Source: Ensifer adhaerens (GTDB lineage Bacteria > Pseudomonadota > Alphaproteobacteria > Rhizobiales > Rhizobiaceae). From it: a stretch of 64,000 nucleotides of DNA. A model generated the notes under the pieces. That model was not told where the DNA came from and ran no database searches. It saw only the letters and a program-made list of their open reading frames with translations. The position numbers and the translations under genes were made by a program. The stretch covers positions 186,001 through 250,000 of the forward strand of contig NZ_LAZS01000006.1 in the NCBI RefSeq assembly GCF_002007205.1, read 5' to 3'. How positions within the stretch are numbered: position 1 is the stretch's first letter; the number at the start of each line of letters is the position of its first letter. Shown here one piece after another: positions 3,997-40,001 of the stretch.

Positions 3997-5076
3997 TCAC
4001 AGATAGAGACCGTCGCGCTGCGACTTCATCAGATCGGTGATCTTATCGTCGGGCGCCTCGGGCAGGACCAGCCGCAGTTCGACCAGCAGGTCGCCATGCG
4101 TTCCGTAGGCCCCGGGCATTCCCCTGCCCGCAAGACGGATGACCTTGTCCGAACCGGACCAGGCGGGCACGACCACCGTAACTTGCCCAACCGGTGTCTC
4201 GATGACCTGCTCGCAACCGAGAACCGCGCCCTGCAGATCGATCGGCAAGGTGGTCATGAGGTCGAGACCACGGGTTCGAAAGGCCCCGCCCTGATCGACC
4301 CTGAGCGTGACGACGACGTCGCCACGGGTCATGCCGGTCACCCGATAGCCCTGCTCCGCCAGACGAATGCTCTGACCGTCGACGGCGCCCGGAGGGATCT
4401 GCACCTTCAGGCTTTCGCCGTCGGGAAGCTCGACGCTGAGGCGCTGGCGATTGATCAGGTCGTCAACGCTGACGGCGAGATCAATGGGAAGATCCGGGAC
4501 CTTCTCGGCAGTCTTTGCCGCGCGACCCCGGATCCGCCGGACGATTGCGGCCACAAGCTCGGCTGCCGGTGCGGCTGCACGCTGCATCAGCGGCGTCTCT
4601 GTCTTGAGAGCGCTTTCCTGCTGCGGTTCGGGGGCTGGTTCCGGCTTGCTTTCGGAAGCCTGGGCCGGGCGCTCCGGCTCCTTTGCTGCCGCAGCCGGCT
4701 TCGGTGCCGGCTTGGGTGCCGGCTTCGGCGACGGACGGGCCGACTTGGCGCGGACCTCCGCACCAAAAATCTGTGAAATGGCATCCTCGGCGGTTTCAGC
4801 GTCGACCGGCGGCTCCTCCTGAGGCCGCATCTTCGCCTTCATCGCCTCCATGCGGCGAAGCTCGGCCTCGCGGCGGGCATAGTCGTAGCGGCTTCTGAGC
4901 TTCGGATCGCGCAGGAGTTCATAGGCCTTTCCGGCCTCGGCAAAACGCTCGGCGGCGTTTGGATCGTCCTGGTTATGGTCCGGATGCACGGCCTTTGCCA
5001 GCGAACGCCAGGCCGCCTTGATTTCGTCCTGCCCGGCGTTGCGCCGGACCCCGAGGATCACATAGGGATCACGCAT
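3997..5076 (-). CDS. J-domain (DnaJ C-terminal class) co-chaperone
   Basis: About 359 residues. The N-terminal J domain (about 1-70) begins MRDPYVILGV and holds the HPD tripeptide (AVHPDHNQDDPN) needed to stimulate Hsp70 ATPase. A long low-complexity linker rich in Pro, Ala, Lys and Glu follows (about 75-190), then a C-terminal substrate-binding domain (VELPDGESLKVQIPPG, YGTHGDLLVELRL). There is no Cys-rich zinc finger, so it is a CbpA-like type rather than the main DnaJ. It presumably partners DnaK in the cytosol. An ATG four codons upstream (5088) is an alternative start; I prefer 5076 because J domains usually begin at the MRDPY segment. Confidence 0.88.
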   Translation of the reverse strand: MRDPYVILGVRRNAGQDEIKAAWRSLAKAVHPDHNQDDPNAAERFAEAGKAYELLRDPKLRSRYDYARREAELRRMEAMKAKMRPQEEPPVDAETAEDAISQIFGAEVRAKSARPSPKPAPKPAPKPAAAAKEPERPAQASESKPEPAPEPQQESALKTETPLMQRAAAPAAELVAAIVRRIRGRAAKTAEKVPDLPIDLAVSVDDLINRQRLSVELPDGESLKVQIPPGAVDGQSIRLAEQGYRVTGMTRGDVVVTLRVDQGGAFRTRGLDLMTTLPIDLQGAVLGCEQVIETPVGQVTVVVPAWSGSDKVIRLAGRGMPGAYGTHGDLLVELRLVLPEAPDDKITDLMKSQRDGLYL

Positions 5077-36439: not shown

Positions 36440-37534
36440 TCACGCTTCGATCTGGACGTCACCGAGCGGCCGCGAGCAGCAGGCGAGGATGTAGCCCTCG
36501 TCAATCTCGTCGTCGAGAATGCCGCCATTGTGGTTCATCTCCACCTCGCCTGCGACCTTCATCACCCGACAGGTGCCGCAGATGCCGCCCTCGCAGGCCG
36601 CGCCGATGCGCACCCCGTTTGCGCGCGCCGCCTGCAGGATCGTCTGGCCGGGCTTGGCCTCGATTTCCTTGCCGCTCATGGTGAAGGCGATCTTGGCGGC
36701 CTGGACCTCGCCGTCGTCGCCACCGCCGGCGCGCACGGCGATCTCTTCCGCGGCGGGTGCTGCCGCCGGCTGGAAGCTCTCTTCGTGGTAGCGGCTCATG
36801 TCGAAGCCGGCCGATATCAGCATCTCGCGCACGCCACGCATGAAGGGCTCCGGACCGCAGCAGAAGACGGTGCGCTCCAGGAAATCGGGCGCGAGCAGCG
36901 GCAGCTTGGCGCCGTCGATGCGGCCGCGAAGCCCGTGCCAGCCATGGCGCGCCTCGTGCCCCTCGACGATGAAGCCAAGGTTCAGTCCGGTCATTTGCGT
37001 CGCCAGAACCTCCAACTCCGAGCGGAAGAGCAGATCCTCCGGCCGACGCGCGCAGGAGATGAAGGTGACATCGGTTTCCGGCACGCAATCGGCCATCCAG
37101 CGCGTCATCGACATCATCGGCGTAATGCCGGAGCCGGCCGAGATGAACAGGTACTTGTCGCCGGGGTGGCGCACGAAGCTGAAATCGCCGAGTGGGCCGA
37201 AGGCGCGGAGCTTCATGCCCGGCTTCAGATGATCGAACATCCAGCGGGTGCCGATGCTGTCGGCCTGCGCCTTCACCGTCACGGCGATCGAAAGCGGCCG
37301 CGATGGCGTCGATGAAAGCGTATAGGTGCGCATGACCGGCTCGTCGGCGGTCGGCAGTTCGAGGGTCACGAATTGCCCGGGCAGATAGCGGAACCAGGCC
37401 GGCTTTTCGGCCCGGAAGGTGAAGGTCATGACATCGGCGGTTTCGACGACCGCGGACGTGCATTCGAGCATCTGCTGCCGGTCGATCCAGACATGCAGCG
37501 CATCGAAGTGATGGAAGGAGGATGCCATCTGCAT
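36440..37534 (-). CDS. gbcB: glycine betaine demethylase reductase subunit GbcB-like
   Basis: A 364-residue flavoprotein reductase: FAD domain (MRTYTLSSTPSRP), NAD domain (YLFISAGSGITPMMSM, CCGPEPFM), and a C-terminal plant-type 2Fe-2S ferredoxin with CEGGICGTC and a later Cys (LACCSRP). It passes electrons from NAD(P)H to the Rieske oxygenase GbcA. The ATG at 37534 lies one nucleotide after the gbcA stop, so translation is coupled. Hmp-like and HCP-reductase relatives share this architecture; the gbcA neighbour makes GbcB the best reading. Confidence 0.88.
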   Translation of the reverse strand: MQMASSFHHFDALHVWIDRQQMLECTSAVVETADVMTFTFRAEKPAWFRYLPGQFVTLELPTADEPVMRTYTLSSTPSRPLSIAVTVKAQADSIGTRWMFDHLKPGMKLRAFGPLGDFSFVRHPGDKYLFISAGSGITPMMSMTRWMADCVPETDVTFISCARRPEDLLFRSELEVLATQMTGLNLGFIVEGHEARHGWHGLRGRIDGAKLPLLAPDFLERTVFCCGPEPFMRGVREMLISAGFDMSRYHEESFQPAAAPAAEEIAVRAGGGDDGEVQAAKIAFTMSGKEIEAKPGQTILQAARANGVRIGAACEGGICGTCRVMKVAGEVEMNHNGGILDDEIDEGYILACCSRPLGDVQIEA

Positions 37535-37535
37535 G

Positions 37536-38780
37536 TCAGGCGACCCTTGAAAGCGGAGCCGCATCGCCCTGCAGGCGCTGCTCCATGAACTTGCAGTACC
37601 ATTCGACGAACTGCATCACGCCACCCTCGTGCTCGGGCGAATAGGGTCCGGGCTGATAGGCAGGCGAGCGGATGCCGAAGGCATTCTCCTCGACGATCTG
37701 GCGATCCTGGTCGTTGGTCTCGGTCCAGACATGCGTCAGTTCTTCAAGATTGTAGTCGACCCCCTCGACCGCATCCTTGTTGACCAGCCACTTCGTCGTT
37801 ACCTGCGTCAGCTCGGGGCCGAGCGGCAGCACACGGAAGGTGATTGCGTGGTCGGCGAGCACGTGGTTCCAGGTGGTGGGATAATGGAACATCAAGAGCG
37901 TGCCGATCTGCTTTTGATGCACGTCGGCCGACAGCGCCTGCCTGACGGCGCGCGCGCCCGACATGGTGTAGCTCTCGGCATTGTCGACGAGCGGCATGCG
38001 CGCGGCGCGGAACTGGCCGGTCGGTGACATCCGGAATTCGCTCGGCAGGCCCTCCGCCTCGCACTTCGCCCAATGCTCGGCGATGACGGGATCGTCCTTG
38101 GCGCCCTGTACGCCGGTCGCGGTCGGAGCTTCCGGATAGGTGCGGCAGAGTTCCGGATGATTGGCGGCGCAATGGTAGCACTCGCGGTTGTTTTCCCAGA
38201 CGAGCTTCCAGTTGCCCTTTTCGACGATCGTGCTTTCGAAGGCGACCTTGGTTTCGCCGAGGCGATGCGGCGCCAGATAGGGCGTGACCAGCTCACGAAA
38301 CGCCGCGAAGTCCGCGGGCTTGTCCGACAGATTGATGAAGATATAGCCGCCGACCGTCTCGCAATGGATCGGCTTCAGGCTATGGGCCGCCTTGTCGAAA
38401 TCCTCGCCCATCTGGCGGGCAAAGAGCAGCGAGCCGTCGAGCTCGTAGGTCCACTGGTGATAGGGACAGACGAGTTTCGCCGACGAGCCCTTTGCTTGCG
38501 TGCAGACGCGGGAGCCGCGGTGGCGGCAGGAATTGTGCAAGGCGCGGATCGTGCCCTGGCGATCACGGGTAATGACGACGGGATAGTCGCCGACCTGGGC
38601 GGTGAAGTAATTGCCGGCCCGCGGGATCTCGCAGTCATGGCCGATGAACAGCCAGTCCTTGTACCAGATGTTTTCCAGATCCTGCCGATAGAAGTCGGGG
38701 TCGATGTAGAAGGCCCGATCGAGACTGTAACCGTCGCGGCGGCCCTTCAGCCTGCGAAGCATATCGTTTCTGGTGTCCAT
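37536..38780 (-). CDS. gbcA: glycine betaine monooxygenase oxygenase subunit GbcA-like (Rieske)
   Basis: A 414-residue Rieske non-heme iron oxygenase. The Rieske cluster is held by CRHRG and CPYHQW. The catalytic domain has NWKLVWENNRECYHCAANH with the iron ligands, and a Glu where most Rieske oxygenases have a bridging Asp, as in GbcA, stachydrine demethylase and carnitine oxygenase relatives. Expected reaction: oxidative N-demethylation of glycine betaine to dimethylglycine plus formaldehyde; a related quaternary amine is possible. GAGGACAG precedes the ATG. A cobalamin riboswitch lies about 115 nt upstream on the same strand. Confidence 0.88.
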   Translation of the reverse strand: MDTRNDMLRRLKGRRDGYSLDRAFYIDPDFYRQDLENIWYKDWLFIGHDCEIPRAGNYFTAQVGDYPVVITRDRQGTIRALHNSCRHRGSRVCTQAKGSSAKLVCPYHQWTYELDGSLLFARQMGEDFDKAAHSLKPIHCETVGGYIFINLSDKPADFAAFRELVTPYLAPHRLGETKVAFESTIVEKGNWKLVWENNRECYHCAANHPELCRTYPEAPTATGVQGAKDDPVIAEHWAKCEAEGLPSEFRMSPTGQFRAARMPLVDNAESYTMSGARAVRQALSADVHQKQIGTLLMFHYPTTWNHVLADHAITFRVLPLGPELTQVTTKWLVNKDAVEGVDYNLEELTHVWTETNDQDRQIVEENAFGIRSPAYQPGPYSPEHEGGVMQFVEWYCKFMEQRLQGDAAPLSRVA

Positions 38781-38894
38781 GTCCTGTCCTCATGCGCCAT
38801 GTTTCGGAGAGGCAGGACAGGAACCCGCACGGGCGCACGCCCATACGTTGTCGGCTCCGATCCGGCTGCCCGCCGCAACCCGTTACGGTTATGT

Positions 38895-39066
38895 CCGTCA
38901 AGGCTGGTTTCCGGGCTCAGGAGCCGTCCTTTCGGACCAGCCCGGCGCCTTCCCGGACGAACCGTCCAGTGGCCTTGCCGAGGCTTTCGCTCCACCACCG
39001 TTGCGGGGGCAGCGCCGGGATTTGACCGGCTTCCCAATTCTCCGCCTCCTCTTCGAAGACGGCACC
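38895..39066 (-). ncRNA. cobalamin (B12) riboswitch upstream of gbcA
   Basis: Read on the minus strand, all main conserved parts occur in order: GGGAAGCCGGTC near 39034-39023, TGCCCCCGCAACGGT near 39009-38995, GCCACTGG near 38974-38967, GGGAAGG near 38956-38950, and the B12 box GAGCCCGGAAACCAGCCTTG near 38919-38900. CCGTC near the 5' end pairs with GACGG after the B12 box, closing P1. The gbcA start is about 115 nt further on, and no other start codon intervenes with a credible ribosome binding site. Riboswitches of this class usually turn expression off when adenosylcobalamin is plentiful. Confidence 0.9.
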
Positions 39067-39401
39067 TTGAGTAAGGATATGTAAGCTTGGAACCCCGCTC
39101 GGGAGCTGCCGAATAGCGACATCCAATTCCAGAATGACGACACGGATAATTCGGATGATAACGATCCGTCTTTGCAATTTTATGCATTACAAACAAATGG
39201 ATAGTTTAAATATTGGGCATTTGCCGTCTTTTGCGCCCCGTCTGTCGCCGGCGCGTGAAGACTTCGCCCGTTTGCGACATCCGCTTCGACCGCCGGCCTG
39301 GGGTCCCGCATCGGATCGAAATCTTTCGTTAACCATGAGGCGTTAGCCTTGCGCGGCGGACGACAGGTCCGGCAAGGCAGGCAGATGGCGCGCTGACGAT
39401 C
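39067..39401. other. intergenic region between the riboswitch and the next gene
   Basis: 335 bp holding the promoter for the riboswitch-gbcAB transcript (minus strand) and that of the plus-strand hypothetical gene. The part 39110-39230 is clearly AT-richer than its surroundings (GCAATTTTATGCATTACAAA, GTTTAAATATTGGG). I see no gene. Confidence 0.5.
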
Positions 39402-40001
39402 ATGGCAAAGCTCAGATATTACGACGCGGCGGCCGAGAAGCCGCCGGCGATGCCGCCGAAGGCGGCAGTTCATACCGAATTCCTGCGCACCGGCCGGATC
39501 AATCGCCGGCAATGGGTGCCGAGCGAGCGCCGCTATCTCAGCTATGAAGAAGTGGCGGAACGGACGGCCAAGAAGCTTACCACCGCCGGCGATACCACGC
39601 ACAAGAGGATCAACGGCTTTCACGCGTCGATCCAGTTTCCGAAGATGATCTTCCACCGCACACTCGTCGGCAGGCCGCATCTTGGCTACTGTCACGTGAC
39701 GGCGGCGCGCACGCCGGTGGCACCATCCAGGGACATTACCTGGTCGTTCTACTTCGCCAATTTCTTTTGCGACCTCGGCGACGAGACGCATTTCTTCGAG
39801 CGCATCCAGACCGGCTACTCCCGCATGTATTTCGCCGTGGCCATCGAGCCGAACAGCGACGACGGACAAATGGTCATCAACCGCAATGTGAGCGACAACG
39901 GGCTGCTCTTTCGCACCGAAGATCCCAAGGTCGCGTTGAAGAACGTCCTGATGCTCGGCGCCAAGGACAACGCCTTGCGTCGCATCATCCGCAGCCTCTG
40001 A
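39402..40001 (+). CDS. hypothetical protein, rhizobial DUF6656-like
   Basis: A 199-residue protein without signal peptide or membrane segments, with many aromatic and basic residues (GFHASIQFPKMIFHR, GYCHVTAAR, WSFYFANFFCDLGDETHFF). I think it belongs to DUF6656, a family restricted to Rhizobiales, but this is from memory. No catalytic motif is evident. Single gene ahead of the Sua5-type gene by 77 bp; co-transcription is possible. Confidence 0.7.
   Translation: MAKLRYYDAAAEKPPAMPPKAAVHTEFLRTGRINRRQWVPSERRYLSYEEVAERTAKKLTTAGDTTHKRINGFHASIQFPKMIFHRTLVGRPHLGYCHVTAARTPVAPSRDITWSFYFANFFCDLGDETHFFERIQTGYSRMYFAVAIEPNSDDGQMVINRNVSDNGLLFRTEDPKVALKNVLMLGAKDNALRRIIRSL

Follow-up and report, generated by a model that had tools for sequence, protein, structure and literature searches.

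Why should a cobalamin (B12) riboswitch stand in front of genes for a betaine demethylase? The question is raised by a 64,000-nucleotide stretch of the Ensifer adhaerens genome (contig NZ_LAZS01000006.1, positions 186,001 to 250,000; the window), in which a two-gene operon resembling gbcAB is preceded on the minus strand by a match to the Rfam cobalamin model RF00174. The match, obtained with cmscan, spans 39084-38885 and the full model (positions 1-189 of 189) with 115.4 bits and an E value of 3.2e-28 (gathering threshold 31.5), and no other Rfam family reaches gathering level within the 64-kb window. The B12 riboswitch that an earlier note had read before gbcA from the letters alone is thus borne out by the covariance model. 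Across Rhizobiaceae we find a link between this riboswitch and the corrinoid-dependent betaine demethylase Mtg that is both statistical and specific. We consider it quite likely that gbcAB is a B12-independent backup of Mtg, as metE is for MetH. It is also likely that betaine catabolism in Rhizobiaceae can begin by either of two interchangeable steps, Mtg and GbcAB, between which the cobalamin riboswitch chooses, and that the switch is discarded once Mtg has been lost. If it is discarded together with its cobalamin-dependent partner, a riboswitch before gbcA would predict Mtg.

Co-occurrence of the riboswitch and Mtg

The Ensifer genome holds seven cobalamin riboswitch matches, six of them above gathering and one, before cobP, at 30.9 bits. 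Apart from the one in the window they precede an ABC transporter, metE, nrdHIEF-like open reading frames, a bluB-like gene, a cbtA-like gene and cobP-cobW-cobN, all named by eye from open reading frames. The riboswitch of the bluB-like gene, whose product presumably makes the lower ligand of B12, lies at C18:831744 of this genome (G000; L015:3744-4694). Because metE and nrdHIEF, which are B12-independent substitutes, also carry cobalamin riboswitches, we analyzed the co-occurrence of the gbcA riboswitch with Mtg. The genome encodes MetH and four MttB-family genes, one of which adjoins a B12-binding corrinoid protein at C18:632 kb. By homology this pair was taken as MtgB and MtgC. The cobP riboswitch is about 25 kb away, and the genome scan found no cobalamin riboswitch near the pair.

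Out of 297 Rhizobiaceae genomes, 127 contain a gbcA match at E <= 1e-120. The window's own genome, six genomes with Stc2-like genes only (54-57% identity) and one with a gene fragment (G245, see below) were set aside, leaving 119. The riboswitch was scored by a motif pattern, with Rfam given the last word. An Rfam scan of all 37 leaders negative by the pattern rescued two, and the other 35 showed no cobalamin match at E <= 1. The comparison of this leader across relatives, which the earlier note had proposed and which was run here in Rhizobiaceae, finds the riboswitch kept on the same strand in 84 of the 119 orthologs. MtgC was detected in 215 and MtgB in 214 of the 297 genomes. Riboswitch and Mtg are both present in 80 of the 119 genomes and both absent from 33, while four have the riboswitch without Mtg and two have Mtg without the riboswitch (Fisher 1.4e-22, a raw value that overstates the evidence, the genomes being related). 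Put differently, 80 of 82 genomes with Mtg have the riboswitch, and 33 of 37 without Mtg lack it. Pattern-only scoring gave 78 genomes with both, four with the riboswitch only, four with Mtg only and 33 with neither (p 1.4e-20), and the use of MtgB as marker produced an identical split in all 119 genomes.

Given this relatedness and the overstated Fisher values, riboswitch and Mtg could simply be clade markers inherited together by chance, with no functional tie. An IQ-TREE tree was built from 90 orthologs (all 35 lacking the riboswitch and 55 of the 85 carrying it, window included) and two outgroups. At least 10 changes of the riboswitch and nine of Mtg are required on this tree. However, of seven supported independent pairs that differ in Mtg, an average of 6.7 differ in the riboswitch in the same direction and 0.0 in the opposite one (median p of the sign test 0.0156, range 0.0156-0.125). 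The contrast recurs inside two genera, namely in g107, where G237 has both traits and G107 and G289 have neither, and in g48, where G047 and G140 have both and G204 has neither. Control traits show nothing comparable, and chance inheritance is hardly credible as an explanation.

Control traits and competing roles

Control traits were scored in 80 of the 119 genomes, comprising all 39 that do not have both riboswitch and Mtg plus 41 of the 80 that do. In this set Mtg is found in 41 of 45 genomes with the riboswitch and in two of 35 without (p 1e-15). The corresponding numbers are 35 of 45 and 26 of 35 for CobN (p 0.79), whose matches fall into two sizes, both scored as present, and 7 of 45 and 8 of 35 for MetE (p 0.56). 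Counted over independent pairs as same, opposite and no change, CobN gave 1.1/0.3/3.5, MetE (seven pairs) 1.5/0.0/5.5 and MetH (five pairs) 0.4/1.0/3.7. None of these is significant, with so few informative control pairs that small effects could go undetected. All 33 genomes lacking both riboswitch and Mtg keep MetH as well as one to six other cobalamin riboswitches each (median 3), and B12 use and B12 regulation therefore persist there.

These controls bear on two other roles for the switch. In the first, which the earlier note had offered, low B12 would lead GbcAB to supply glycine and one-carbon units for 5-aminolevulinic acid (ALA), tetrapyrrole and corrin synthesis. The riboswitch would indeed derepress gbcAB at low B12, and betaine raises the B12 yield in Pseudomonas hosts, an effect ascribed to methyl supply in the available part of PMC9699165. 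The riboswitch does not follow CobN, however. All 10 CobN-less genomes among the 43 tested with Mtg carry it, and CobN is present in 24 of the 33 genomes that lack both Mtg and riboswitch, so that the riboswitch tracks Mtg. We thus rejected the riboswitch as a mark of B12 producers and regard corrinoid supply as very improbable.

In the second, the switch would direct betaine either to oxidative demethylation or to methionine synthesis, with a methionine synthase as its partner. The steering of betaine by B12 supply, also raised in the earlier note, comes closer to the data. It was aimed at B12-independent methyl transfer to homocysteine, though, whereas the correlation points to B12-dependent Mtg, and the S. 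meliloti 'BHMT' that it would depend on has been reinterpreted as MtgE, a module of the Mtg system (PMC12478193, in part). According to the same part of that paper, Ruegeria MtgC and MtgD are required for glycine betaine demethylation and serve methionine synthesis as well. The two roles are for this reason not fully distinguishable by co-occurrence with Mtg. Yet neither MetH nor MetE shows a significant association, and both were rejected as riboswitch partners. MetH is also present in 64 of the 80 genomes with riboswitch and Mtg, and it is missing from both genomes that have Mtg without the riboswitch, where Mtg would be the methionine synthase. Methyl economy is distinctly unlikely on these grounds. 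As a separate observation, the MetH activation domain PF02965 is absent from 120 of the 297 genomes, reduced and incomplete ones included, and from 16 of the 80 with riboswitch and Mtg. This fits a split Mtg-type methionine synthase common in Rhizobiaceae.

Exceptions, losses and points against

Two Rhizobium strains illustrate how the riboswitch disappears. In R. lusitanum SEMIA 4060 and R. freirei PRF 81 (L097 and L098, about 4650-5003) some 105 nt of the aptamer core are deleted, and since both aptamer ends and the following hairpin remain, the absence represents a loss. R. lusitanum Opo-234 has an intact riboswitch. A permissive Rfam scan for a remnant in Neorhizobium galegae (L094) gave no cobalamin match. 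Among 80 named loci, 71 contain a looser motif pair, eight have neither this pair nor an Rfam cobalamin match and one is too short; all five looser-motif positives scanned with Rfam were confirmed. Farther afield, no cobalamin match reached gathering level in the roughly 11 kb scanned for each of the Paracoccus and Agrobacterium orthologs (70% and 60% identity), and a class-wide sample of 240 genomes yielded two further relatives at E <= 1e-165. Riboswitch motifs were found in none of eight Stc2-like genes (54-57% identity; two of them share a genome with an ortholog), scored by pattern only. The fragment set aside above (G245:C4:3464455-3465405) is a gbcA ortholog that contains two TGA stops and lies close to the end of its contig; the genome has MtgC. 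Only 176 nt lie upstream on the contig, and the fragment was left out of riboswitch scoring.

Several points weigh against gbcAB as a backup of Mtg. The four genomes with a riboswitch but no Mtg belong to one genus (g94); two of them were scanned, and at 57.3 and 57.9 bits they score lower than 40 other Rfam-scanned riboswitches (84.6-118.8 bits). The two genomes with Mtg but no riboswitch belong to another genus (g102), and since both lack MetH, Mtg may serve methionine synthesis there. Further, Rfam confirmed 45 of the 84 positive riboswitch calls, 40 of them in two scans of 20 positives each in which none failed, the other 39 being made by motif pattern alone. MtgB and MtgC were recognized by Pfam family, adjacency and homology to the copies of this genome rather than to the proven Ruegeria proteins, and Mtg calls mean these two proteins only. 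The tree is that of the gbcA gene rather than of the species and was computed without a mixture model, and the base of the sign test is seven pairs only. Finally, the GbcA equivalog model NF058607 scores the window protein at 517.1 bits, under its cut-off of 670, and the GbcB equivalog NF058606 scores its partner at 390.5 bits, under a cut-off of 500. Because these cut-offs are missed, the substrate could be another betaine.

Enzyme type and substrate

GbcA and GbcB are nonetheless the best NCBIfam models for the two proteins. The gbcAB naming of the earlier note holds for the betaine-demethylase type but goes further than the equivalog cut-offs permit; the GbcA cut-off was also unreached by all eight other alpha- and betaproteobacterial relatives scanned. 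The best PDB sequences for the window GbcA are 3n0q (538.7 bits) and 3vca (523.7 bits), the latter of which we take to be S. meliloti Stc2. The protein has a Rieske motif CxH..CxxH starting at C85, a bridging E200, the Cys pair C201/C204 and N198, two residues before E200 at the position of CntA Tyr203. Asn in place of this Tyr marks clade Vb, the glycine betaine and proline betaine N-demethylases, in the available parts of PMC7948474 and PMC10952381. All features of group Vb, which carries out oxidative N-demethylation of betaines, are present in the window protein, and ECYHC is found in all 92 sequences (the 90 orthologs including the window and two outgroups). We conclude that the window GbcA is probably a betaine N-demethylase.

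If the enzyme instead demethylated another betaine such as stachydrine and had a B12-dependent relative of MttB as its counterpart, this would agree with the missed cut-offs, with the close relationship to 3n0q and Stc2 (3vca) and with the four MttB-family genes of the genome. On a tree with such a gene, however, the S. meliloti Stc2-type gene, which adjoins a gene annotated stc4, falls in a three-row clade (99/95) outside the 16-row fork of the window (90/90, not starred), so that the window clade appears separate from it with moderate support. In addition, the neighborhood of the relatives in Paracoccus versutus and Agrobacterium 1D1609 includes fdhA, the gene for formaldehyde dehydrogenase, and a BCCT transporter or glycine-betaine-binding protein gene. 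Another betaine as substrate is thus unlikely, and we retain the reading of gbcAB as a backup of Mtg acting on glycine betaine.

Besides two distant, partial paralogs of GbcA, the same genome encodes two nearer ones, of which one has 42% identity and scores 411 bits with the GbcA model and the other has 33% and 264 bits. The 42% paralog belongs to a second gbcAB-like pair on contig C4 (L018:7703-10031), beside a LysR-like open reading frame and an amidohydrolase-like gene, and this contig has no cobalamin riboswitch match. The 33% paralog (C18, about 36-44 kb; L019:18-8279), beside which no reductase gene was seen, adjoins an MttB-family gene and two GcvT/sarcosine-oxidase-like genes, possibly forming a second methylamine or betaine cluster.

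The leader as a candidate translational switch

The features of the locus are as follows.
38885..39084, minus strand: cobalamin riboswitch aptamer RF00174 (cmscan 115.4 bits, E 3.2e-28)
38973-38966, minus strand: GCCACTGG, inside the aptamer, presumably the B12 box
38864..38880, minus strand: hairpin directly 3' of the aptamer with the conserved loop GCGGCGGG (from the sequence)
38772..38825, minus strand: candidate translational expression platform, a hairpin pairing GGTTCCTGTCCTGCCTC with the Shine-Dalgarno and start region (AGGACAGGACATGG) (RNA fold)
37536..38780, minus strand: gbcA-like gene, group Vb Rieske oxygenase of 414 aa, probable betaine N-demethylase (NF058607, 3n0q/3vca, residues)
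36440..37534, minus strand: gbcB-like gene, flavin adenine dinucleotide (FAD)/ferredoxin reductase partner of 364 aa (NF058606), counted from the ATG just past the gbcA stop; the mechanical open reading frame begins at 37564

The aptamer lies upstream of gbcA as the earlier note had it, at a measured distance of 104 nt instead of about 115 nt from its 3' end to the gbcA ATG (38780), and its 5' edge at 39084 is slightly beyond the 39066 given there. Inspection of this interval showed no intervening gene, in line with that note, and the next gene-like open reading frame upstream (39402-40001, plus strand) is divergent from gbcA. The GCGGCGGG loop is partly complementary to CCCCGC in the aptamer and its hairpin is probably the kissing-loop hairpin P13. 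The loop motif GCGGHGGG occurs in 64 of 83 leaders with a riboswitch and in none of 29 without.

The leader segment 38884-38760 folds at -54.3 kcal/mol (z -2.71). Occlusion of the start region was computed for 111 of the 119 leaders and the window, eight having been dropped as no start codon was at the expected place. In riboswitch leaders the unpaired fraction of the start region is 0.337 versus 0.410 with the upstream part shuffled, and lower in 65 of 83 (Wilcoxon 2.4e-8). Leaders without a riboswitch show 0.407 versus 0.416 (n=29, p 0.69), and the two groups differ at p 0.024. The leaders are related and not independent, and these p values are too small. For the window leader alone the values are 0.283 and 0.409, with four of 20 shuffles equally low. 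No terminator was matched in the gbcA leader; no promoter was found either, in a scan that covers one promoter type and says little. Repression is the usual direction for the cobalamin riboswitch class, and we infer that the RNA binds B12, turns expression OFF and acts on translation, and that both routes use glycine betaine. When cobalamin is plentiful, the occupied riboswitch would repress translation of the O2- and NADH-dependent betaine N-demethylase, and betaine would be demethylated via corrinoid-dependent Mtg with the methyl group kept on tetrahydrofolate. When cobalamin is low, Mtg would fail, the riboswitch would empty and the ribosome-binding site would open, allowing GbcAB to take over with dimethylglycine and formaldehyde as products.

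To our knowledge this would be the first riboswitch to decide whether a nutrient is catabolized by a corrinoid or by an oxidative route. The use of betaine, a major nutrient and osmolyte, would thereby be coupled to B12 status, and one could predict when the toxic by-product formaldehyde arises. Betaine is fed to industrial B12 producers of the Rhizobiaceae, where the switch would decide by which route it is consumed. More generally, the pattern of joint loss shows how a riboswitch can point to the B12-dependent enzyme for which a gene stands in.

Comparison with known systems

The RNA itself has already been catalogued in a relative, and what is new is the proposed reason for it. An Rfam riboswitch before S. 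meliloti SMc00982 is listed in the surveys PMC2245857 and PMC2573895, and PMC2848018 calls the gene a likely dioxygenase; the available passages of these three papers propose no function for the riboswitch, and the choice between GbcAB and Mtg is offered here as one. In S. meliloti Ak57 (CP090106, labelled pSymB, 3.7 Mb) the ortholog of the window gbcA has 82.1% identity and a 100.3-bit cobalamin riboswitch upstream. SMc00982 is probably this ortholog, judging from position (about 955 kb versus 967 kb in the Ak57 record), preceding riboswitch and annotation. In the literature searched, as far as its texts were available, no link between a cobalamin riboswitch and betaine demethylase or gbcA was found, and in the part of PMC12478193 available the word 'riboswitch' occurs once, in a reference on a glycine riboswitch. 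The same paper says that S. meliloti mtgBCDE lies with its cobalamin operon and cites an extra betaine route of this species, there ascribed to Mtg, for which gbcAB is a further candidate.

Cobalamin riboswitch targets are classed in the available part of PMC3766115 as B12 synthesis, B12 transport, cobalt transport and isozymes of B12-dependent enzymes. The window leader resembles other RF00174 members in its full-length aptamer and differs in its target, a Rieske betaine demethylase. The proposed logic is identical to that of the metE and nrd riboswitches, both present in the same genome, but here the step concerned is catabolic, and the two enzymes that serve it are unrelated and differ in their co-products. 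With GbcAB/BmoAB of Pseudomonas and Chromohalobacter the pair shares the best NCBIfam match of both subunits, the group Vb residues and the two-gene operon; it differs in scoring under both equivalog cut-offs and in its riboswitch leader, the Pseudomonas gbc genes being regulated by GbdR. Stc2/Stc4 of S. meliloti belong to the same group Vb at about 55-56% identity, whereas the window gene stands in a separate clade. MtgBCD would carry out the same reaction step in a B12-dependent way; as an enzyme GbcAB is unrelated to it.

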